From Halorubrum sp. PV6 (GTDB lineage: Archaea; Halobacteriota; Halobacteria; Halobacteriales; Haloferacaceae): a stretch of DNA of 64,000 bases. Below the pieces are notes generated by a model that worked only from the letters and a program-made list of their open reading frames with translations, was not told the DNA's origin and searched no databases. The stretch lies in NCBI RefSeq assembly GCF_003990725.2, contig NZ_CP030065.1, forward strand, positions 62,001 through 126,000, given 5' to 3'. Position numbers and translations under genes: made by a program. Positions 34,887 to 52,362 of this stretch are shown one piece after another; within the stretch, counting starts at the first letter, position 1, and each line of letters begins with the position of its first letter.

Positions 34887-36125
34887 TCAAGACGCATACG
34901 TCCCAAGCGTCGCCTGCTGGGTGTCAGCATCGGCTTGGCTGTCTTGTGGGGCGGTCAAACGCCCCCCATCCTCAGCCGAGTCATCGTCGTTCTCGTGTCC
35001 TCTGAAACGACTCTCTCCGCTGAGGTAGCGGTCTACGATGTTCACCGCTCCGTTCACATCCGCTTGATACTCGCCCATCCAGCAAGCGTCGTTCGTACAC
35101 TTGAACGTCGCCTGTCGCGGGCGGTATCCCACCTCACCGCAAGCGTGGCACTCCTTCGAGGTGTTGCGCGGGTTCACCGTCTCCACCGGGATACCCTTCT
35201 CGACGGCTTTGTATCGAATCTGTGCGTGGAGTTTGGCGAATCCCCATCCGTGGAGACGCCGGTTCATGTACTCGCCGTAGTCCATCGACTCCCGTATATA
35301 CGTTAGGTCTTCCAGAACGAGAACGGGGTTCTCGACGGACTCGGCGTATTCCACGACTTCACAGGTGACGCGGTGGAACACGTCGTCTATCTGTCTCCAC
35401 ACGTCATCCCCGAAGGACTCCGCGATACGCTCGCTACCGCGCTTCTGAAGCCGCCTTGTGGCGGTGAAGTAGGTCTTGCGGAGCCGACGAACGGTCTTCC
35501 CCTCGTCGGCCCACAGTTCGGGAGCGGTCGGAGAACCGTGGTCGTCGCGGTGACACACCGTGACGAGCGACGCTTCCCCAATATCGACACCGATGGGCGT
35601 CGGTTCCTCAACGGACGCCTCGAAACCATCCTCCACGTCGCGGGTGGCGGTGACGTGGAGGAACCACGTCCCATCCCGCTCGAACAGCCGACTCTCCCCC
35701 ATCTCCGCGTCACCAGCGTTCAACGCTTCCAGCCAGTCTCGCTGTTCGGGATTCGGCTGTGCTGGCATCCAGAGGTGGTAGTCCTCGTGGTGCGGGATTT
35801 TGACGTACCACTCGATTGCGTTCTCGGGCTTGTGGTCGAGCCGTAGCCCCTCGTTCGTGAAGCGGACAGGGTGGTCGTCGTGAAGTTCGCCCGCGTTGTA
35901 CGTCGTCGTCAACTGCGGGACGTACTTCTTGAGCGCGTTCTTCGCGTACCCGCTCAGGTGGTAGTTGACCACCACGTCGTTCGCTTCGGTCTGCGTGGTA
36001 CATCGGGCGTCGAAGGCATCTTGGAGGGCGTGCTGGTACGTCTCTCGCGTCTCACGGAGTTTCCGCCGCTTGTGGGCGTTCGGCTCTACCAGTTTGAGTT
36101 CGAGCGTCTTCGTGAGTTCGATCAC
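34887..36125 (-). CDS. tnpB: TnpB, RNA-guided nuclease of IS200/IS605 element
   Basis: The 412-residue protein starts at GTG 36125, overlapping the tnpA stop (GTGA). The RuvC acids are present in PIGVDIGEASLVT, VLVLEDLTYIRE and YQADVNGAVNIVDR; the zinc ribbon is CHACGEVGYRPRQATFKC with a final C in TNDAC. The N-terminal helix-turn-helix region (LELKLVEPNAHKRRKLRETR) is intact. It would be guided by RNA transcribed from the right end, at present reading into the disrupted toxin-like gene. It is diverged from the TnpB at 15006. Confidence 0.9.
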   Translation of the reverse strand: MIELTKTLELKLVEPNAHKRRKLRETRETYQHALQDAFDARCTTQTEANDVVVNYHLSGYAKNALKKYVPQLTTTYNAGELHDDHPVRFTNEGLRLDHKPENAIEWYVKIPHHEDYHLWMPAQPNPEQRDWLEALNAGDAEMGESRLFERDGTWFLHVTATRDVEDGFEASVEEPTPIGVDIGEASLVTVCHRDDHGSPTAPELWADEGKTVRRLRKTYFTATRRLQKRGSERIAESFGDDVWRQIDDVFHRVTCEVVEYAESVENPVLVLEDLTYIRESMDYGEYMNRRLHGWGFAKLHAQIRYKAVEKGIPVETVNPRNTSKECHACGEVGYRPRQATFKCTNDACWMGEYQADVNGAVNIVDRYLSGESRFRGHENDDDSAEDGGRLTAPQDSQADADTQQATLGTYAS

Positions 36126-38802: not shown

Positions 38803-39001
38803 ACCTGAAGAATACTTGTGTGAGGGATAAGCATTGAGGTTTGGTCGTCCTGCCGATGCCTCAGGCCGCACGATCGATGGAAGCCATCAGAGAGTGTCGA
38901 CGGTGAATCTAGGACTGATGGCAAATAGATACACTACGCCTCTGACTCTGGTTCTCTGAACCCCCCTCCCATTATGTTCCCCACGAGTGATAGGCAGTGT
39001 A

Positions 39002-40249
39002 ATGGCAGCCTCGCTCGCTGAACCTACGGTGCTTGCTGCGGCGAAAGATACGCTGTACCCGGATATTGAGACGAGCCCCGACCAGTACGCGGTCACGGAA
39101 ACGCAGTTCACGCAATCCACGTGGGGCGGCTGGACCGTCCCCGACACGATTCGTGACCGCCTCGCACCGTACAACACGATCCGACTCCACGCCGGCGAAC
39201 CCGATTTACTCGGTGTCGGCATGCCAGCCACCAACGTGTTGAACGGTGACGCAGCCACGACACCAGTCGCGGTGATCGAGGCGAAAGGCCACAACTCGGA
39301 CCCGGCCGCTGCCGACGTCGCTCGCGGCATCACGCAAGCGCACGCGCACCTCCCTGAAGTCAACCTCGGGTACGTCGCTGCGCCGGAACCCAGCATCACA
39401 GACGCGGCACGCGCACAAGCGAGGAACCTCAACGTCGGCATCATCGCCGTAGAGGACACTAACTCCGCGCGTGTCGTCGAGCCCGCCCGGGTTACGGGGG
39501 CCGGTGAGTTCTCCACGACGATCGACGCGGTGCGACTCCAAGCCACCGCGCACCGACTCACCGACGGGAGCTTCCCAGTGAATCACCCGAAAAACTACCT
39601 CGGATACGCGCTTGCGCTTGCTGCCGACGGTGACACCGAGACCGTGTACGCCGACAACGTCATCAACGCTATTTCTGGAGGGCGGCGCGGCGCTATTCTG
39701 TTGAGCCTCGTCGACGAGCAACCCACCGGCGACTCACTGACGCACCTCGGCGCAGAGGTCGTCCGCTTCGCCCGCGATCGGCATGGGAGCGTCACGGCTG
39801 CGCTCACAAAATTCGATAAGTGGACCGGCCGATCAAAGCGGTTCACGAAACTCGCCCCGAGGTGGGCGCAGCTCGCACGGTCCGTCGCCATCCAATACCA
39901 GCCGACTCGACTCATCATCAGCGCACTCGAACGGCTTCATCAGAACGGGACACGGGACGCGACGCTCGCCGACGTCGCACTCGAAGCCACACGCATCAAC
40001 CAGCCACTCGCTGTTGAGGTGTTTTTCACCCAACATCGACGAGAGGACGTTCTCACCGCAGACGGCGATCTTAACCAGTCCGCCCTCAGTGATCCGACGA
40101 TCTATAAATCCGGGATTCACTTCCAATTCAAATATCAGCTCTACCACGTCGGAATCCTCACCACCGGCGGCACCGACGACAAGAAGACCGTGTTGAGCAA
40201 CACATGGCGGTTAGAGCAAGCGGTTGGTAGCGCATCCGGACCATGGTGA
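39002..40249 (+). CDS. Predicted PD-(D/E)XK-type protein of unknown role
   Basis: The start is ATG 39002 (MAASLAEPTVLAAAKDTLYP). The 415-residue protein contains HAGEPDLLGVG followed about 20 residues later by TPVAVIEAKGHN, spacing and residues (D..ExK) that match PD-(D/E)XK nuclease cores; a further helix (AADVARGITQAHAHLP) and strand (VNLGYVAAPE) follow, as in that fold. The C-terminal half is probably helical and DNA-interacting. It is convergent with the helicase/exonuclease operon. Nuclease activity is inferred from motifs. Confidence 0.6.
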   Translation: MAASLAEPTVLAAAKDTLYPDIETSPDQYAVTETQFTQSTWGGWTVPDTIRDRLAPYNTIRLHAGEPDLLGVGMPATNVLNGDAATTPVAVIEAKGHNSDPAAADVARGITQAHAHLPEVNLGYVAAPEPSITDAARAQARNLNVGIIAVEDTNSARVVEPARVTGAGEFSTTIDAVRLQATAHRLTDGSFPVNHPKNYLGYALALAADGDTETVYADNVINAISGGRRGAILLSLVDEQPTGDSLTHLGAEVVRFARDRHGSVTAALTKFDKWTGRSKRFTKLAPRWAQLARSVAIQYQPTRLIISALERLHQNGTRDATLADVALEATRINQPLAVEVFFTQHRREDVLTADGDLNQSALSDPTIYKSGIHFQFKYQLYHVGILTTGGTDDKKTVLSNTWRLEQAVGSASGPW

Positions 40250-40335: not shown

Positions 40336-42879
40336 CTACCTCTCTGACTGTGTATCGAACGCTGCCAACAAGTCATCAAGAATCATCGTCCCAGTCGCAG
40401 TATCGAGTGGGTCGTTGTTGTTCCCACAGTCTTCGCTCATGACACAGAGCGGGCAGCCCCGGCGACGGCCACACTCACAGTCAGCAATGTGTTCGCGTGT
40501 CCGATCAGCTAGTGTCTCGATGTGCTCGTATATCGCTTTTGAGAAGCCGATCCCACCGTCGATTCCGTCATGAACAAACCATGTTGGTCCTGGGATCGTC
40601 TCGTGTGGGTGCGACGGCGTTGAGAGTCCGCCAATATCGTGGTTATCGATCATCAGCTCCAGCGGCGCGAGTTGGATGATCCCGTGTTCAGCGGCGTGGA
40701 GCCCGCCGGCGTACGTGTACCGCGCTTGCTCCATCGGGACTCGCGGATCATCGCCCGCCCGTTCTGTTGGCTCTAAGAGCGGCTCGTCAAGCGAGTTGAT
40801 CGTCGCCTGTAGATGGTCTTCGGGCAGCGAGACCCACAGGAGTTCGGTCTGTAAATCAAGCGGCGGTGTCTCGGTCGGAAGCGGCCCCTCAATTAGCTCA
40901 CCCGTCTGATAGTCACGGACCATGTAGTTCCCGTAGGTGATCCGCACCGTCCCTGTCCCGAAGTAGACATTATAGTCACCTGCCAGCGACGTGTGGTCTT
41001 TGACTTCGAGATCCTGAACCTGCTTGGTTGACAGCGTCTGCGTGTAGTGCGTGGTAGCTACCTCTTCGACGTGAATTCGCGGGTGGGGCTGGCTGTGGTC
41101 CACCTCGATCACTTCGTACTGTTGACCTGCATGGAGGAACAACGCTCCCTCGTGGTAGTCGCGGTAGGCTCGTTCGGTAGCGACCGGGTCGTGCTCAATT
41201 TCGCCGTTGGTACAGACCACCTCGTAATCGATGCCTGTCGTCCCGTACAATGAGATCCGGCTCTGCGGGCGTCGGTCGCCGGCGTAGGTGACACCGCCAG
41301 CGTCGAGATCCCCCGCTTGTTCAAGTAGCCCGGCGTCTTGCCACATGGCAGTCATTTCCCGGAACCGGTCCTCGCCACCGAGATACGGCGCATCTTCAGC
41401 CGTCAACGGACGTTCAGCGGCTGCCGCTAGCAGGTGGTCCGCGAAGACGCGGTCGTTATCGATGGAGACCACCGCGTCCTCCACGGTGTCGTCATCGAAC
41501 AAGTACCGCGGATTATCGAGAATATAGGCATCCATCGCGTCCTTCCCCCCGACAAGCACTGAGAGTGCGTCGCTCGTCCCGCGGCCCGCACGGCCGATCT
41601 GCTGCCAGAAGGACTGTTTGGTCCCCGGATATGAGTCCGTCACCGTTGCGTCCACCGACCCGATATCAATCCCCAACTCCAACGCATTCGTCGAAATAAC
41701 CGCATCGAGGTCAGCGCTTTTCAACTGGTTTTCGACGGATCGACGCTTCCGCTTCCCAAGGCCCGCGTGGTAAGGTTCGACGTCGATGTACCTATCACGC
41801 GGGTGGTCACGGACGGCCTGAACCGTTTGTTTTGCACCGATTTCGGTCCCTTGACGGGCTGTCGTGAACTGTAGCGTCTGGATCCCGTTGACCGCTAAGT
41901 GCGCCGTCACGGAGGATGCTTCACGCGCACTGGACCGACGTGCCTGTTCGAACCCCTCCATCAGGTCGCCGCTGCCATCATCATACCCTTCGAGCGCCTC
42001 GTCATCAAGCGGCGGCTCCCACAACACGATATCACGATTCCCACGCGGCGACCCATCCTCGCTGACGACGCTGAACTCGGCTCCAGTCAATGTGGAGGCG
42101 TGAGCAGCCGGATTACCGATCGTCGCAGTCGTGATCACGAACTGCGGATCCGCACCGTAGTGGGCGAGTACGCGCCGAAGCCGGCGCAAGATCCACGCAA
42201 CGTGAGTCCCCATGACACCGCCGTACTCGTGGCCCTCGTCAATCACCACGAGCTCAAGATTACTGTAGAAGCGATGCCAGCCGCGATCCTTGTTGTGGCG
42301 CGGTAAGTAGACGTTCAACCCGGCCGGGTTCGTGAGGATGACGTTCGCATTCTCACGAACAGTCCGCTTCCGCTCATCTTTGGTGTCACCATCATACGTC
42401 CCGATGTGAGTATCAAGATCCAACTCACCGCGCAACCGATCGTTCAGCGCTTGTTCTTGGTCGTTTGTGAGCGCTTTCGTCGGGAACAGACAGAGTGCGG
42501 TCGCATCATCGTTAGCGAGGTGATTCCGTGCGATCTGAAGCTGGTAGATCAGCGTCTTTCCCGATGAGGTCGACGTCGTAACAACCACGTTCTCATCGGC
42601 CGCAAGCAGATCCAGTGCCTCGGCCTGATGTGAGTACAGATCATGGCCGAGCGGTGACGCAAGCCGATCCTGAAGTACGTCCTCGGGAGCGACAGTCTCA
42701 GCAGACTGCGCGTCGAGCCGCTCACTATGCCGGATCTGTTCACGCCAGTCCGGGAACGACTCTTTCAGCTCCGACTCAGAGAGAATCTCGCGGTGACTAG
42801 CAGTCCCTCCATCGGGCCGCAGCATCCGCGTGTCGGTTGAGGTCACGTGTTCGGATCGAGGTGAATGGTTATCAGTCAT
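40336..42879 (-). CDS. DUF1998 DEAH-box helicase, MrfA/YprA-like
   Basis: The 847-residue superfamily 2 helicase has TTSTSSGKTLIYQLQ (motif I), VVIDEGHEYGGVMGTH (motif II, DEGH), VITTATIGNPA (motif III) and FWQQIGRAGRGT (motif VI). The C-terminal DUF1998 cysteine cluster ends in CECGRRRGCPLCVMSEDCGN. Bacterial MrfA/YprA has this layout and works with a YprB exonuclease in an excision pathway for mitomycin adducts. Here the helicase ATG lies 2 bp after the exonuclease stop, supporting a joint function. Confidence 0.82.
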   Translation of the reverse strand: MTDNHSPRSEHVTSTDTRMLRPDGGTASHREILSESELKESFPDWREQIRHSERLDAQSAETVAPEDVLQDRLASPLGHDLYSHQAEALDLLAADENVVVTTSTSSGKTLIYQLQIARNHLANDDATALCLFPTKALTNDQEQALNDRLRGELDLDTHIGTYDGDTKDERKRTVRENANVILTNPAGLNVYLPRHNKDRGWHRFYSNLELVVIDEGHEYGGVMGTHVAWILRRLRRVLAHYGADPQFVITTATIGNPAAHASTLTGAEFSVVSEDGSPRGNRDIVLWEPPLDDEALEGYDDGSGDLMEGFEQARRSSAREASSVTAHLAVNGIQTLQFTTARQGTEIGAKQTVQAVRDHPRDRYIDVEPYHAGLGKRKRRSVENQLKSADLDAVISTNALELGIDIGSVDATVTDSYPGTKQSFWQQIGRAGRGTSDALSVLVGGKDAMDAYILDNPRYLFDDDTVEDAVVSIDNDRVFADHLLAAAAERPLTAEDAPYLGGEDRFREMTAMWQDAGLLEQAGDLDAGGVTYAGDRRPQSRISLYGTTGIDYEVVCTNGEIEHDPVATERAYRDYHEGALFLHAGQQYEVIEVDHSQPHPRIHVEEVATTHYTQTLSTKQVQDLEVKDHTSLAGDYNVYFGTGTVRITYGNYMVRDYQTGELIEGPLPTETPPLDLQTELLWVSLPEDHLQATINSLDEPLLEPTERAGDDPRVPMEQARYTYAGGLHAAEHGIIQLAPLELMIDNHDIGGLSTPSHPHETIPGPTWFVHDGIDGGIGFSKAIYEHIETLADRTREHIADCECGRRRGCPLCVMSEDCGNNNDPLDTATGTMILDDLLAAFDTQSER

Positions 42880-42881
42880 GG

Positions 42882-44510
42882 TCAGGAGAAATCGGCGAGC
42901 GAGCCTTGTGAGCTGTTTTCACCGGTCGGCGTCTTCGTTTCCGAGTCCCGTCGCGCAGCTGCTTCGAGATGCTCGTAGATCGTAGCGAGCGCTCGCACGT
43001 CGTCTTCGCAGTACCGTTCCAACCGGTCCCAGTCCGGTTCAACAGCGGTTCCGGCGTTCGCCTCCCCGGCAACCTGGCTTCGATACACCGTGTACAGCTT
43101 GGCAACGGTCTCACCGTCGATCCCGTTCGTCGACGGCTCCCAGCCGAGCGCGTCAGCGACGTGTTCCAGCTTGTTCGTTCGCCCAGGAAGCGCTGCGTTG
43201 CCGCCGTTCTTCTTCGTAGCCCACCACAACGCATCGAACTGATAACGATCGGTCCAAGCCTCCACGAGATCTGGGTGGTGCTGCTGGAGTTGTTCGGTGA
43301 TGACCGGAAAGTCGAATCGGTACCCGTTCCATGCGACAACCGGCCGGCCCGACGCAGCACCGGTGAGCCACGTCATAAACGCCTCTAAGTGTGACCCGTC
43401 ACCGACCGCCTGTTCCCGGAAACTCATGTAGTGCCCATCCTCAGGGCCGCCGTCGAGAACTCCGATCAGCCACGCCGTCGATGGATTCAACCCGTCCGTC
43501 TCAATGTCGATGAACACCGGATCCTGATTCGGTAACGAATCATCACCCGTCGGGAGGACGGTATTCGTGGACTGTGCCTCAGCAGCGGTCTGGATCGTGC
43601 TCGCAGACGTTCGCCCCAACCCAGATAATTCGGTGAGTTGCCGGAGCGGAGTGTCAGCGAGCGCCTCAACGGTAGTGGTGCCAGCATCACGCAGCGTCTC
43701 AAACCGTGTCGGACCGATCTCCGGAACACCGCGCAAGCCGAATTTCTGCGGATCAATCTCGGACACGTCGATCGCTCCGTTCGAGTAGAGCGCAACGAGC
43801 GTTGCCTGTGTCGTATCCGCCGTCGTACCAACACCGAGATCGGCGTTCGACATCCCGACACCAACAAACTGCGCGTCACCATCGTCTCCGTGACTCCGTG
43901 TCGTCGTGAACCCAGCCCGTAGCGCCGTCGAAAGATGAACTGTACGCGCCGTCCACCACTGATCCGGAACCCGGCCGCGATAGCTACTGATCCCGTCAAG
44001 CGTTGCTGACCGGGCATACGGATCCACAGATAACGAAACAGACTGGTCAATCAGACAGATCTGAGAAGTCGTCGCTACATCAGCCGGATCTTCTCCCACT
44101 GAAGACATCCCGACTCTGCTCGCAATCCGCTCTGGGTCGAGCGGCTCCTCACCCATCGGCAACGCTATGACAACACACCGATCCTCGTCTGTAACCGCCA
44201 CGTCCGGCCGCATCCCGGTGCCAACTTCAAGAATATCGAGATCAAACTCCCGACTGAGTGCCGGACCAACGATGCTCGCCTGCGGCTCCGTCGCAACAAG
44301 CACATCAGGATCCAAGCTATCGACTACCGCGGTGATAGTATCGCGGTGAGAGGCGCTCACAGCGGCCCCAGAAAGCGCAAGGACTCGAGTCGGCGATTCA
44401 TCTGGAGGCGGCAACGCCGGCAGTTGTGGACCCGCTCCACCACCGTCAGTATTGAAGCGTGGTGGAGGGGTGGAGTCGGAGTGCCGAGCGGAATCCGGCT
44501 CGTTAGTCAT
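42882..44510 (-). CDS. YprB/MrfB-like RNase H-fold exonuclease with HhH domain
   Basis: The start is taken at ATG 44510 (MTNEPDSARHSDSTPPPRFN). The C-terminal exonuclease begins DPVFIDIETDGLNPSTAWLI, with VVAWNGYRFDFPVITEQLQQ and LERYCEDDVRALATIYEHLE, matching the DEDD-type YprB family. A helix-hairpin-helix pair precedes it (FGLRGVPEIGPTRFETLRDA, LTELSGLGRTSASTIQTAAE), which would bind DNA. The N-terminal 250 residues are unassigned. Bacterial MrfB instead has TPR repeats, so the fusion differs. It probably trims DNA opened by the helicase downstream. Confidence 0.78.
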   Translation of the reverse strand: MTNEPDSARHSDSTPPPRFNTDGGGAGPQLPALPPPDESPTRVLALSGAAVSASHRDTITAVVDSLDPDVLVATEPQASIVGPALSREFDLDILEVGTGMRPDVAVTDEDRCVVIALPMGEEPLDPERIASRVGMSSVGEDPADVATTSQICLIDQSVSLSVDPYARSATLDGISSYRGRVPDQWWTARTVHLSTALRAGFTTTRSHGDDGDAQFVGVGMSNADLGVGTTADTTQATLVALYSNGAIDVSEIDPQKFGLRGVPEIGPTRFETLRDAGTTTVEALADTPLRQLTELSGLGRTSASTIQTAAEAQSTNTVLPTGDDSLPNQDPVFIDIETDGLNPSTAWLIGVLDGGPEDGHYMSFREQAVGDGSHLEAFMTWLTGAASGRPVVAWNGYRFDFPVITEQLQQHHPDLVEAWTDRYQFDALWWATKKNGGNAALPGRTNKLEHVADALGWEPSTNGIDGETVAKLYTVYRSQVAGEANAGTAVEPDWDRLERYCEDDVRALATIYEHLEAAARRDSETKTPTGENSSQGSLADFS

Positions 44511-44581
44511 CTCAACTGATACGTTGACCCGGGAGCATATTAAGCTTCGAAGAGCGACGTGAAAGTGATCAGAAGAAGTCG

Positions 44582-44859
44582 TCACTCAGTGAACTCTGCG
44601 AGCGTCTTCCGCCGCCGATCCTCAGGTTGGACGTTTGTTATCAGGACTTCAGCAACCTCGCCACGATTACTCGCGTCGCTGTTAATCGCTCGCGTCGCAT
44701 CGGCGTACGTCACTGAGAACGCGTCATGCTCCTCATACAACTCTGTGACCGGTGGTGAATTTGAAATGAGAACTGAGACGTTCTGTTCTGTGAGCTCAAC
44801 AGCCGCGTCTCGCAACCGACGCTGATCGTCTCGATCAAATCCATCGGGGTGATACGAAT
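44582..44859 (-). pseudogene. 3' remnant of a D12-type adenine DNA methyltransferase
   Basis: The frame reads SYHPDGFDRDDQRRLRDAAV then ELTEQNVSVLISNSPPVTEL and RAINSDASNRGEVAEVLITN, the C-terminal third of Dam/D12-class methylases, with a normal stop at 44582. It is open up to the end of the cassette at 44860, and the first two thirds of the gene, with the catalytic DPPY, are absent beyond it. So the cassette lies inside or at the edge of a destroyed methylase gene. Confidence 0.68.
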
Positions 44860-45011
44860 GGCTCTTTTGAGATCCTCTTCTTCAGACACACTCACCTTCG
44901 AAACGGCTGTTCGCTGAAAACTGCGTAGTGAGTATATGTTCCTTCCATCATACGAGCGAGATCTGGAATGTATGTAAGAATTAAGTACTATCATACAAAA
45001 GTAATAACAAA

Positions 45012-45539
45012 ATGGCGAAAGGTAAGGTTGACTTTTTCAATGATGAAGGTGGATACGGATTTATTGAAGTCGAGGATACAGATGAGGATATATTCTTTCA
45101 TATGGAGGATGTTGGCGGTCCGGATCTTGAGGAGGGTCAAGAGGTAGAGTTCGAGATCGAAGAGGGTAATGGAGGAATAAAAGCAAAAAGTGTTGTAGCG
45201 TCGGGGTCTCTTCCGGAACCAGAGTCCGGGGACGCTGGCATAGAAGAGATAACCTCAGAAATAATTGAATTCCTTGAAACTCATGCTCCGGATGATAACG
45301 AGACTGTACAAATTAATATAACAGATTCTGAGCTAGAAGGTGAATTCGAAAGGATGGGTGATGTATTGGATATACCTGAAGCAGAGGTCAGAATGCTAAA
45401 AAACCTCATTTTAGAACTAATTGAATCTCGACTTGAGAGCGAACATATTACTATGGATATCGAAATGAAGGAAGCCACTGCAAACGTTATAGCATCTACA
45501 CTCATTCAAGAATACACTCAAACTGGTGATGAAAAATGA
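45012..45539 (+). CDS. Cold-shock-domain protein with unique C-terminal domain
   Basis: MAKGKVDFFNDEGGYGFIEV begins a CspA-like OB fold of about 65 residues with both RNA-binding patterns (GGYGFIEV and DIFFHMED). It is followed by an acidic 110-residue extension, EITSEIIEFLETHAPDDNET then VQINITDSELEGEFERMGD and a helical LKNLILELIESRLESEHI, that I cannot assign. Archaeal cold-shock proteins are normally single-domain, so the fusion is unusual. Codon use is AT-rich, unlike the neighbours. It overlaps the next ATG by 4 bp. Confidence 0.78.
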   Translation: MAKGKVDFFNDEGGYGFIEVEDTDEDIFFHMEDVGGPDLEEGQEVEFEIEEGNGGIKAKSVVASGSLPEPESGDAGIEEITSEIIEFLETHAPDDNETVQINITDSELEGEFERMGDVLDIPEAEVRMLKNLILELIESRLESEHITMDIEMKEATANVIASTLIQEYTQTGDEK

Positions 45540-45799
45540 TCGATATGATCTATTCTATAGTATCGGGAGCAACTAGCAGTGTGACCTCAAAGCTGTTAGG
45601 TCTGTTTCTGGACGTGGAGAACAAACCGGAGAACCCTGATTCAAAAGTCACCTCTCAAGCTGATGAATTGATAAAGCAAATTGGTGAAAATGCTAGCGCT
45701 CCAGATGACATCCCATCTGCTTTGAATGGATTTAATTTCACTTACCAAACTGCTGATGGTGAAGTGAACAAACAGTATGAGTTCTCTGACTCTGAATAA
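45536..45799 (+). CDS. Hypothetical 87-residue partner of the cold-shock-domain protein
   Basis: The start overlaps the previous stop (ATGA), so the two are translationally coupled. It reads MIDMIYSIVSGATSSVTSKL then LGLFLDVENKPENPDSKVT and ends in an acidic tail (YEFSDSE). The N-terminal 25 residues could be an amphipathic or membrane-associated helix. I know no family. The pair could be a two-gene stress or defence system, but nothing in the sequence proves that. Confidence 0.6.
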   Translation: MIDMIYSIVSGATSSVTSKLLGLFLDVENKPENPDSKVTSQADELIKQIGENASAPDDIPSALNGFNFTYQTADGEVNKQYEFSDSE

Positions 45800-46004
45800 A
45801 TGTAATAATTAGATGGTTTATCTAAAGGGGACAAACAATATTCTGTAGAATTTAAATATTTGGTACCGATCGCTCAATCTCTCTCGCAGATTAGCTTCGG
45901 TTCGCACCACATTCGTGCTCTTTACTGAGCGATTCGTGAGTTACCTGTATTGAGCGATTGGGGTAAAAAACTATCAGATACTGAGGATTTCAACAGAGCC
46001 GGTG

Positions 46005-47684
46005 TCACTCTGCTGGTATGGATTCGACTCGTTCGCCGTCGTCCGTTGCCGCGTACTCGTAGCGGTAGTAGCCGCCGGTCAGGCTGCGAGCCGTTATCCC
46101 GTACTCTGCCAGTACCCGCGTTGCCATGTAGGAACTCTTCCCGATCTTACAGTACGTGAGTACCTCCCCGTCCGGATTGGCGTCGGCGGCCCAGTCTCGG
46201 AGCTCGCCGAGCGGGACGTTCTCGTCGCCGTCGATCCGTCCTTGGGCCTCCCGCATCTCCGGAGGGCGGGTGTCAATGACCGTTGCCTCGTCTTTCCGTT
46301 CGAGAAACTCATCGAGATGGACGACGTCGGCGATGCCTTCGACGACGTTCGCACCGATCATTCCTAACATGTTTACCGGGTCTTTCGCGGCCGAGTATGG
46401 CGGCGCGTATGCGAGATCGTAATCGCGGATATCGAACACGGTGTCCCGGTGTGCGATGGCCGTCGCGAGGACATCGGTTCGCTTGTCGACGCCGCTCTCG
46501 CCGATAACTTGGGCACCGAAGAGCGTTCCGTCGTCGGGATCGAACAGGAGTTTGAAGTCGATCTCTGACGCCCCGGGGTAGTACTCCGCGTGGTTCGGCT
46601 GACTCGTGTAGACCGCTTCGTAGGCCTGTCCCGCCTCGTCGAGCGCCGTTGCCGTGTCACCGACGGTACCGATGTCGAGATCGAACACCTTCGCGATCGA
46701 GGTGTCCAAGACCGGATCGAGGCGGTCGTCACGTCCGGCGATGTCGTTCGCGGCGACCCGGCCCATCCGGTTGGCCGGCCCACCAAGCGGTACCCACGCG
46801 TTCCCGTCGGTCCGAGCGGCCGGCGGAGCGGCGACATCGCCGACGGCGTGGATCGACGGCGTCGACGTTCGCATTCTATCATCGACCGCGACCGCACCGC
46901 TGTCGTGTAGCTCTACGCCTGCCGACTCCGCCAGCTCCGTTCGCGGCGTGACGCCGGTTGCGACGACGACGAGATCGAATGTCTCCCGCGAGCCGTCCGT
47001 CGTGGCGACGACCGTCCCGTCCCCGGGTTCCGCCAGCGAGTCGACGCCGGTTCCCAGCTGGAGATCAACGCCCCGGTCACGGAGCCGTGACTCGACTCTC
47101 GCTGCCATTTCCGGACCGAGTGTGTTTGGCATTACCTGTTCAAGTAACTCGGCGACGACGACGTCGTTCCCGGCTTCAGAGAGGTTTTCGGCGACTTCAA
47201 GGCCGATGTAGCCGCCGCCGATAACGAGCGCTCGCCCGTCACCGGTTATCCCCTCGCGGATAGCCGTCGCGTCTGGGACGCTCCGGAGTGTGTGACAGTG
47301 TTCCAGTTCGGACAGGTCGAACATGGGCGGGACGAGCGGCTTCGCTCCCGTCGCGAGAACGAGGCCATCGTAGGCAATCGCCGCTGGCTCGCCGTCGGCC
47401 GCAGTGACCGAGACCGTCTGCGTATCCGGATCGACATTCGTCGCAGCGACGCCCGTTCGGATATTGAGGTCGAAGGCGGCTGCGAGCTGCTCGCTCCCCA
47501 TCACTGTGAGATCGTCTTCAGCGACAGTGCCGCTGAGGTGATACGGCAGTCCGCAACTCGCGTACGAGATGTTCTCCCCCCGCTCGAGGACGACGATCTC
47601 GGCGGTCTCGTCAAGTCGTCGGAGTCGCGTCGCGGTGCTCATCCCGGCAGCGTTTCCCCCGATAACGACGTACTGCTGTGACAC
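46005..47684 (-). CDS. CoA-disulfide reductase-like FAD enzyme with rhodanese domain
   Basis: The 559-residue protein starts MSQQYVVIGGNAAGMSTATR with the FAD GxGxxG-type motif, the redox cysteine in SYASCGLPYHLSG (about residue 43), an NAD(P)-binding ALVIGGGYIGLEVAENL and a second FAD motif SIHAVGDVAAP. The C-terminal rhodanese domain ends with VLTYCKIGKSSYMATRVLAE, whose cysteine is the sulfur carrier. Such fusions reduce CoA disulfides, persulfides or polysulfides. Its 3' end lies only 4 bp from cassette A. An AT-rich promoter lies at about 47705-47720. Confidence 0.88.
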   Translation of the reverse strand: MSQQYVVIGGNAAGMSTATRLRRLDETAEIVVLERGENISYASCGLPYHLSGTVAEDDLTVMGSEQLAAAFDLNIRTGVAATNVDPDTQTVSVTAADGEPAAIAYDGLVLATGAKPLVPPMFDLSELEHCHTLRSVPDATAIREGITGDGRALVIGGGYIGLEVAENLSEAGNDVVVAELLEQVMPNTLGPEMAARVESRLRDRGVDLQLGTGVDSLAEPGDGTVVATTDGSRETFDLVVVATGVTPRTELAESAGVELHDSGAVAVDDRMRTSTPSIHAVGDVAAPPAARTDGNAWVPLGGPANRMGRVAANDIAGRDDRLDPVLDTSIAKVFDLDIGTVGDTATALDEAGQAYEAVYTSQPNHAEYYPGASEIDFKLLFDPDDGTLFGAQVIGESGVDKRTDVLATAIAHRDTVFDIRDYDLAYAPPYSAAKDPVNMLGMIGANVVEGIADVVHLDEFLERKDEATVIDTRPPEMREAQGRIDGDENVPLGELRDWAADANPDGEVLTYCKIGKSSYMATRVLAEYGITARSLTGGYYRYEYAATDDGERVESIPAE

Positions 47685-48614: not shown

Positions 48615-48665
48615 CGAGTGGCGATGTTAAGTTACGAACGAGGCGGTTGGTGTTTCGAATGCTCT

Positions 48666-49304
48666 ATGTCCGAATCCAACCGCCTCGACGGCTGTACTGA
48701 TTGGATTGACTTGGAGTTTGTGGAGCGAGAGCGGACACCCCACGGGATCATTGAAACCGGTATTCAGCTCCACCTTGCTGGCCCATCACTGTCGAATACC
48801 AAACAGTATCTTGAGAGGTTGGGTGTCGAGAGAAGTCGAACAGCAATTCACAACTGGGTTCAAAAGGCCGATCTACAGCCAGCTGACGGTGCGAGCCCGA
48901 ATCGCGTTGCGGTCGATGAGACTGCGATTCAGATCGACTCAGACCGATTCTGGCTGTACGCCGCCGTCGATCCTCATACAAACGAATTTCTCCACGTTGA
49001 CGTATTTCCCGTTCAAAACCAACAATTTACTTTGGTATTTCTCCGCGATCTCAGAGAGAAACACCAGATTGACGACGCGCTCTTTCTGGTTGATGCTGGC
49101 GGACATCTCACAGCTGCGCCCTCACGTACCTCGCTCCGATTTCAAATTACTCGTCATGGAAATCGGAATGCTGTTGAACGTGTCTTTAGAGAAGTAAAAC
49201 GTAGAACCTCTTCGTTTTTAAATACATTTAGAAACGCGGAGCCGACGGCAGCAGAATCATGGCTCCGAGCCTTCGCCGTCTGCTGGAACCGATGCTTAAG
49301 TTAG
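48666..49304 (+). CDS. IS6 family transposase
   Basis: The start is ATG 48666 (MSESNRLDGCTDWIDLEFVE). The 212-residue DDE enzyme has RVAVDETAIQI, LFLVDAGGHL and VERVFREVKRRTSSFLNTFR, giving the D, D, E triad with the usual spacing, and ends normally in AVCWNRCLS. It appears intact. The terminal repeats could not be placed with confidence; related short motifs (GATGTTAAGTTACGAAC and GATGCTTAAGTTAGCACG) flank the gene. Confidence 0.85.
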   Translation: MSESNRLDGCTDWIDLEFVERERTPHGIIETGIQLHLAGPSLSNTKQYLERLGVERSRTAIHNWVQKADLQPADGASPNRVAVDETAIQIDSDRFWLYAAVDPHTNEFLHVDVFPVQNQQFTLVFLRDLREKHQIDDALFLVDAGGHLTAAPSRTSLRFQITRHGNRNAVERVFREVKRRTSSFLNTFRNAEPTAAESWLRAFAVCWNRCLS

Positions 49305-49364
49305 CACGACCGTCCACTCGTGGGGAGCTAAATATTCGGAAGTTGGATAGCGATCGAGCGTACT

Positions 49365-49703: not shown

Positions 49704-50032
49704 GGCTTTGTTGAAATCCTCTTCTTCAGACAGGTTCTTGTCTGAAACAGCTGGTCGCTGAACGTACCTATTGGCCATAAGATATTCATGAACTCGTCGG
49801 GTTTGAATCGACTATGGCCCTCTCTCTGTCAGCAACTATCGCCTACAGCTTTGTCGCGTCTGCTATCGTCGGCCTCTCCTTTAGTTTTCTCACCGATCGT
49901 GTCTCCGTGAAAATGGGGCTCCTCTTAGCGGTTTCTACTACAGCTGGTCAAGTAGTCGTGAGAATGCTGTGATCAGTATATCGAGCGCAACCGGGTCAGA
50001 ATATATCACTTCTTGAGGATTTCAACAGAGCC
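49704..50032 (+). mobile_element. Passenger cassette B, 329 bp, with 8-bp target duplication
   Basis: GGCTTTGTTGAAATCCTC (49704-49721) and GAGGATTTCAACAGAGCC (50015-50032) are inverted repeats with one mismatch. The cassette is flanked by perfect direct repeats GAATGAGT at 49696-49703 and 50033-50040, proof of insertion by a transposase making 8-bp duplications. It contains no transposase, only a small membrane-protein frame. The 8-bp size suits IS5-family ISH1-type elements, whose ends here are similar. Confidence 0.85.
49814..49972 (+). CDS. 52-residue membrane protein carried by cassette B
   Basis: The frame reads MALSLSATIAYSFVASAIVG, LSFSFLTDRVSVKMGLLLAV and STTAGQVVVRML, with two hydrophobic segments separated by a charged turn (TDRVSVK). 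It fills most of the cassette interior and ends 42 bp before the right repeat. It could be a real passenger; its small size leaves doubt. Confidence 0.45.
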   Translation: MALSLSATIAYSFVASAIVGLSFSFLTDRVSVKMGLLLAVSTTAGQVVVRML

Positions 50033-51987: not shown

Positions 51988-52362
51988 GGCTTTGTTGAAA
52001 TCCTATTCTTCAAACATTTTTTCGCATGAAACAGCCGGTTGATGCGAGCCCCAAATCGACCGTATCTCGGCTTGTGACAAGAACTATGCTCGCAGGAACG
52101 GTCCGTCAAATATGGTCTTCGTACCTGATGAACTCCCGGATCAACTCTTAGTTGATTACGAAAACGCGACCGTATATGGGGATTTGGAACAAGAGAAGGT
52201 GCTTCACCAAGGCAAGGTTCGTGTTCTCCCGAACGGGTGGGTTGCGTTGCCCACTGACCGACTCCTGTCTCCTGAAGCGGTACACCACATCGATCCATAG
52301 AGATCCGATACTGAGCGATCAGGGTCGTGAAACTATCAACTGTTGAGGATTTCAACAGAGCC
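51988..52362 (+). mobile_element. Passenger cassette C, 375 bp
   Basis: GGCTTTGTTGAAATCCTA (51988) and GAGGATTTCAACAGAGCC (ending 52362) form the terminal inverted repeat. The right interior ACTGAGCGATCAGGGTCGTG..ACTATCA is shared with cassette A. Flanks (TCACGTCC left, GCGAGCTT right) show no duplication, so an end has been exchanged or the duplication has decayed. It interrupts the 5' end of an HNH-type gene and carries one 62-residue frame. Confidence 0.72.
52112..52300 (+). CDS. 62-residue protein carried by cassette C
   Basis: The frame reads MVFVPDELPDQLLVDYENAT, VYGDLEQEKVLHQGKVRVLP and NGWVALPTDRLLSPEAVHHI. It is hydrophilic with a beta-rich middle and GC-rich codons. It is unrelated to the passengers of cassettes A and B. 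Function unknown. Confidence 0.5.
   Translation: MVFVPDELPDQLLVDYENATVYGDLEQEKVLHQGKVRVLPNGWVALPTDRLLSPEAVHHIDP

Follow-up and report, generated by a model that had tools for sequence, protein, structure and literature searches.

A two-gene unit with a cold-shock front end in an IS5-type passenger cassette of Halorubrum sp. PV6: a possible provirus-derived conflict module of haloarchaea

A pair of overlapping genes carried by a passenger cassette in Halorubrum sp. PV6 belongs to a small haloarchaeal family in which the C-terminal domain of the first gene product (gene A) and the small product of the second (gene B) form the conserved unit, the cold-shock domain of this copy being an exchanged front end. 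The pair is tentatively read as a provirus-derived two-component conflict module, similar to type II toxin-antitoxin or abortive-infection systems and composed of a regulator or antitoxin and an effector, a possibility in which our confidence stays below even.

The window (the whole stretch of DNA that was analysed, 64,000 nucleotides) is part of a second replicon of 300,774 bp, the main replicon being 2.74 Mb long. Gene A (45012..45539, + strand) codes for a 175-aa protein formed by a cold-shock domain and a predicted helical C-terminal domain, and gene B (45536..45799, + strand) codes for its 87-aa partner. The two open reading frames and the small overlapping partner gene described in an earlier, sequence-only reading of this DNA are present, the stop and start overlapping by 4 bp (ATGA) and both frames being intact. 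The AT-rich codon use that it had pointed out is confirmed as well, with a GC3 of 0.33 for gene A and 0.40 for gene B vs 0.64-0.76 in the flanking chromosomal-type genes, as is the claim that the pair is the sole coding content of a transposon-ended cassette, whose inverted ends lie at 44860-44877 and 45983-46000.

The cold-shock (OB-fold) domain corresponds to positions 45012..45197 (+ strand; residues 1-62 of gene A). PF00313 matches residues 3-62 (E 3.3e-18), the RNP1-like GYGFIEV and RNP2-like DIFFHM stretches are intact, and the domain is 62-77% identical to Csp, of which the main chromosome has four copies, so that an OB-fold nucleic-acid-binding domain, as first proposed, is indicated both by the profile and by the 77% identity to the cell's own Csp. 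No model of Pfam, NCBIfam, PADLOC or PHROGs matched residues 66-175 above threshold. This part includes a conserved, probably helical C-terminal domain (45327..45536, + strand; approximately residues 106-175) that is related to the C-terminus of gene A in Haloarchaeobius iranensis, with helices predicted at residues 111-118, 123-143 and 150-170 in a low-confidence AlphaFold model (pLDDT 52). A homologue search with this domain in 170 genomes of the family and 391 of the class recovered only itself below E 0.001, and a GTDB pattern scan with it gave no match. The second domain had been described as acidic and without recognised homology; the latter is correct for the profile libraries and has to be amended for haloarchaeal genomes, where relatives were found, while acidity is no distinguishing trait for a haloarchaeal protein.

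Gene A contains the PF00313 domain that characterises the CspA family, and its residues 1-62 form a Csp domain typical of haloarchaea, but with 175 aa and a second conserved domain it departs from the single-domain proteins of about 65-70 aa, and the module has an extra 110-aa domain, a coupled partner and relatives lacking the cold-shock domain. It is quite improbable that the protein is an RNA-chaperone-like regulator, in which the cold-shock domain would act on mRNA in the manner of Csp proteins, with the C-terminal domain and gene B serving as a localising or tuning scaffold, making the pair a stress gene and not part of a conflict. The intact domain and its 62-77% identity to the genome's Csp copies agree with such a role, but the distribution of the pair is sporadic and mobile and, since the relatives do without the cold-shock domain, such a role would not belong to the module as a whole.

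Relatives of the pair were sought in 391 haloarchaeal genomes. Gene B as query identified one relative among the 391, in H. iranensis (genome G299, NZ_FNIA01000035; E 3e-9, calculated per genome, as are all E-values of this search; z 20, the z-scores being derived from shuffles that are simple composition controls), and a two-sequence profile made of the window and G299 copies led to a third member in genome G075 (E 1.3e-8; z 12), so that the family has three members and its alignments three sequences. A GTDB pattern scan with the partner alignment returned H. iranensis again and nothing further. Weak gene B matches inside long ORFs (positions 39-84 of frames of about 600-720 aa) and matches in genomes G083, G066 and G069 were judged to be due to chance.

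In H. iranensis, a 247-aa gene A overlaps gene B by 8 bp, and its C-terminal 70-100 residues resemble those of the window copy (z 4.9-6.9, with 0 of 2000 shuffles as good), whereas the N-termini of the two proteins are unrelated (z 0.5). In G075, gene A is interrupted by an ISH3-family transposon (NF033541) and overlaps gene B also by 8 bp; its 3' part resembles the C-terminus of the H. iranensis protein (z 8.5) and its 5' part the N-terminus (z 4.1, with seven shuffles out of 2000 as good). The C-termini of the window and G075 proteins give a z of 1.8, which is not significant alone, and their relation is drawn from the chain through H. iranensis and from the partner match (z 12). Gene A is thus found upstream of, and overlapping, gene B at the three loci (4, 8 and 8 bp), and the two genes co-occur at both other places where gene B was found, contrary to the outcome named beforehand as refuting. 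The cold-shock domain is not constant: both relatives have a beta-rich N-terminal domain in its position. Because the C-terminal domain and gene B are both kept while the N-terminus is unrelated in H. iranensis and G075, these two elements are the conserved unit.

The H. iranensis locus contains a tyrosine integrase (+ strand), a winged-helix regulator (-), gene A (-) and gene B (-), in this order, followed on the same strand by virion genes with matches to phage families, among them a membrane protein and a spike related to pleolipovirus spikes; about 30 bp separate the regulator from gene A. This locus is a pleolipovirus-like provirus. In G075 the integrase, the winged-helix regulator (phrog_2440, 3.6e-34), A and B are arranged in the same order, and McrC-like (PF10117, 3.3e-12) and McrB-like genes are found about 4.4 kb past gene B. 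The neighbours of the relatives are of mobile and defence-like kinds, with integrase and regulator beside both and the McrBC-like pair at one locus only; the nucleic-acid-sensing, defence or stress role proposed at the outset is a conjecture. The McrB-like and McrC-like genes of this G075 island (L174:2310-5314) overlap, and a 205-aa tyrosine recombinase fragment lies further on.

Lambda rexAB is a two-gene pair that mediates superinfection exclusion. The A/B unit could likewise be a lysogeny or superinfection-exclusion pair of pleolipovirus-like proviruses with a rexAB-like layout, the window copy being an escaped version, which is considered unlikely; in this case the pair would be expressed with the regulator when integrated so as to keep out related viruses, gene A recognising the incoming virus and gene B hitting the envelope or replication. 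The integrase/regulator/A/B order in H. iranensis, the same-strand virion genes after it, the short distance between regulator and gene A, the repetition of the order in G075 and the Gly/Ala-rich N-terminus common to the gene B members are in favour of this reading, and in both genomes the unit, like rexAB, adjoins an integrase and a regulator within an integrated virus. The window copy, however, has neither these neighbours nor any other viral context, no sequence relation to rexAB was recognised, and gene B does not look like a multi-span membrane protein: its highest Kyte-Doolittle mean over 19 residues is 1.19, a hydropathy estimate only, and no convincing transmembrane segment is predicted. 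The pair was also not found in isolated pleolipoviruses or other phage records, and searches of phage and plasmid records and of IMG/VR (the latter by pattern scans) gave no record with the pair, just ordinary Csp domains.

The viral context could also suggest counter-defence, that is, a viral module that shields its element from host defence and whose variable N-terminal domain would match host targets. Two of the three members are proviral and the members diverge fast (approximately 30% identity in gene B), but no anti-defence family was matched and G075 has its own McrBC-like genes beside the pair. This explanation is considered very unlikely.

Gene B is predicted to be composed of Gly/Ala/Ser-rich N-terminal helices, a middle helix and a C-terminal beta hairpin (model with pLDDT 62), the Gly/Ala/Ser-rich N-terminus being common to all three members. 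It gave no match to known toxins or effectors in Pfam, PADLOC, PHROGs, NCBIfam or PDB sequences, and Foldseek with the gene B model found nothing below E 2; Foldseek/VIA-align rows (best Z 5.9, helical bundles) were not interpretable, and the models are too poor to name a fold. A housekeeping fold in the second domain, named beforehand as the outcome that would speak against a new system, was not recognised, the models being too poor to exclude one.

As a conflict module, the pair may work as follows. Gene A would be the regulator, with an exchangeable N-terminal recognition domain and a conserved C-terminal helical domain that would hold gene B, the small effector or active component. The N-terminal domain may recognise either a ligand or the transcript of the module itself, and in the window copy the cold-shock domain should bind single-stranded RNA or DNA, while the coupling of translation through the overlapping stop and start would keep the proportion of A to B. 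Gene B would be released once the N-terminal domain encounters its ligand or the gene A protein disappears, and would then arrest either the cell or the invader. The pair would have moved from virus-like elements into the IS5-type passenger cassette. What we infer here is that the two proteins bind each other, that gene B does harm, that the cold-shock domain triggers or autoregulates the module and that transfer went in this direction.

This conflict-module reading is suggested by the position of gene A, directly upstream of and overlapping gene B at both other loci, by the retention of the C-terminal domain and partner with a swapped N-terminus, as in antitoxins, in which an exchangeable nucleic-acid-binding domain is followed by a toxin-binding tail, by the integrase and winged-helix regulator that adjoin the relatives, one of them with McrBC-like genes, and by a HicA-type pair that this cassette family carries in the same genome, bounded by a perfect 8-bp duplication. 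In addition, it has been suggested that the toxin-like genes of the pleolipovirus SNJ2 act as addiction modules (PMC13107129). Several observations argue against it: gene B has neither a toxin match nor a convincing membrane segment, the models are poor (pLDDT 52 and 62), plainly non-toxic passengers occur in the same cassette family, the direct match between window and G075 is weak (z 1.8) and the family has three members.

Type II toxin-antitoxin systems (e.g., HicAB) are similar in having two short overlapping genes, the nucleic-acid-binding regulator first, and mobile company, the HicA-type pair being carried by the very same cassette family; short adjacent co-translated genes with the putative regulator first are found at three loci of the A/B family. 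They differ in that a cold-shock front end is unusual for an antitoxin and in that gene B resembles no known toxin in sequence. Cold-shock/OB domains are used in conflict systems such as TOTE/TALON (PMC12458937) and CoCoNuTs (PMC11090510), and these, together with the retron Se72 effector, share with the module such a domain in a defence setting, although the window cassette contains no reverse transcriptase, helicase, TBP or McrB, and the score of gene A against NCBIfam retron_eff_Se72 (33.9 bits, cut-off 82) is below the family threshold.

It is more doubtful whether the pair represents a new provirus-borne haloarchaeal two-gene conflict family with a constant core and a replaceable recognition domain, which in one version would be a cold-shock domain that detects single-stranded nucleic acid, the family being spread by viruses and by class-wide IS5-type cassettes. 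If this were true, it would be a two-gene conflict family missing from Pfam, PHROGs and PADLOC, an addition in archaea, where few such modules have been characterised, and a case in which the recognition domain can be exchanged with the core retained.

The cassette belongs to an extended element family. Its left end (44860..44920, + strand; terminal inverted repeat 44860-44877, GGCTCTTTTGAGATCCTC) is shared with other cassette ends in its own genome and in genome G127, and its right end (45873..46000, - strand; terminal inverted repeat 45983-46000) has 78-88% identity with those of two cassettes of G127 that have other passengers; GGCTCTTTTGAGATCCTC is found at 44860(+) with two mismatches and GGCTCTGTTGAAATCCTC at 46000(-) with none. 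Nine end sites were counted in the window vs 0.10 expected from shuffling, and 62 in the whole genome (allowing up to two mismatches within the first 15 bases) vs 0 for the reversed pattern, and the exact 18-mer end is present in 218 of 391 haloarchaeal genomes (control, 0). Flanking 8-mers are identical at 7 or 8 positions in 13 of 34 end pairs, nine of them exactly, with about 0.01 expected, a few of these pairs overlapping or being nested; the family makes 8-bp target duplications. Three elements (L158, L159 and L160) contain a 273-aa IS5 transposase (NF033579, 209.8 bits vs a cut-off of 140; PF01609), two of them with another recognisable gene alongside. Because the same ends flank an IS5 transposase, the window cassette is considered a transposase-less passenger element of this family, whose mobility would come from the IS5-type transposase, in agreement with the mobile nature attributed to it at the outset; a truncated transposase start was seen at C2:152050-152428 of the same genome. 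Two other mobilisers were discarded: the IS6 copy at 48620-49314 is bounded by different ends of its own, a second copy being nested inside a cassette, and ISL3 transposase was not found in 52 genomes of the genus. The IS6-family element (NF033587) is 695 bp long and 93% identical to the copy in the cassette C2:286789-287714.

Passengers found between end pairs include a HicA-type toxin with a DUF7387 protein, a glycine-rich 57-aa protein (two copies), a BrkB-like protein, an LLM oxidoreductase, RDD, DUF7344 and periplasmic/substrate-binding-like proteins and others. Since the family carries such ordinary passengers (RDD, BrkB-like, LLM, substrate-binding), riding in a cassette says little about function. 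The HicA-type toxin gene (PF07927, 4.1e-10) lies beside the DUF7387 gene, which probably codes for its antitoxin, in a 759-bp cassette at C2:156985-157743 (L107) that has these ends too and is flanked by a perfect 8-bp duplication (CTACGGCA). Two further elements with these ends are present in the window, one at 49704-50032, flanked by a perfect 8-bp duplication (GAATGAGT) and possibly containing a hydrophobic ORF of 58 aa, and another at 51988-52362 with a 62-aa ORF; L156, L157, L091 and L092 are other examples of this class-wide family, most of which lack a transposase.

Passenger-carrying insertion sequences are termed tIS in a review of the IS6 family (PMC7986276), and Haloquadratum has an ISH2-type MITE that contains an ORF (PMC3119063). 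The window cassette family is similar to these elements in its terminal inverted repeats, 8-bp target duplications, passengers and a transposase supplied elsewhere, but it is IS5-type, carries many different passengers and has its end in 218 of 391 haloarchaeal genomes. The literature search turned up no report on this group of IS5-type passenger cassettes, which is weak evidence of its novelty. Common-ended passenger cassettes would explain the movement of single genes or gene pairs between haloarchaeal replicons, and the 18-bp end offers a simple search handle for more candidate accessory and conflict genes.

To the left of the cassette, the 3' fragment of a Dam/D12-type adenine methyltransferase (44582..44859, - strand; PADLOC oMTase, E 4.8e-11) is cut at the cassette end, its homology ending exactly at 44859; intact relatives of 289 aa are found in genomes G122, G118 and G155. 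On the right, the sequence from 46003 belongs to a conserved reductase/rhodanese locus, which is shared from this position by G115, G155 and G112; these agree with each other across the junction (46001..46014), having GGATGTCACTCTG or a close variant, and thus represent the unoccupied site. The sequences that border the window copy, ATACGAAT and GGTGTCAC, do not form a matching target duplication. With two flanks from different places and no target duplication, the locus has been rearranged and is not a clean methylase insertion; its simplest reading would be two insertions joined by deletion or recombination. The cassette had been placed within a destroyed methylase gene, and this applies to the left flank, which is a broken methylase; the right flank is an unrelated locus, and the methylase is not simply the insertion target. 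The missing duplication, the diverged left end and the rearranged flanks, together with the fact that the pair is single-copy and absent from 51 other genomes of the genus, are consistent with a passenger that has no current function, an AT-rich viral remnant between transposon ends that has not yet decayed, but this is improbable given that both frames are intact, the coupled overlap is preserved and the nucleic-acid-binding motifs are retained. No Rfam families were found in 44400-46400, and a sigma-70 promoter scan is uninformative for an archaeon.

Other genes were observed to the left of the cassette. A MrfAB-like repair pair, a helicase with an MZB domain followed by an RNase_H_2 exonuclease, adjoins it (40336-44510, - strand), and beside this pair lies a gene (38987-40249) for a 420-aa protein that matched neither Pfam nor PADLOC. 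A 412-aa TnpB-like protein (34887-36125, - strand) has a zinc-finger-like CHACG...C motif, as judged by eye.
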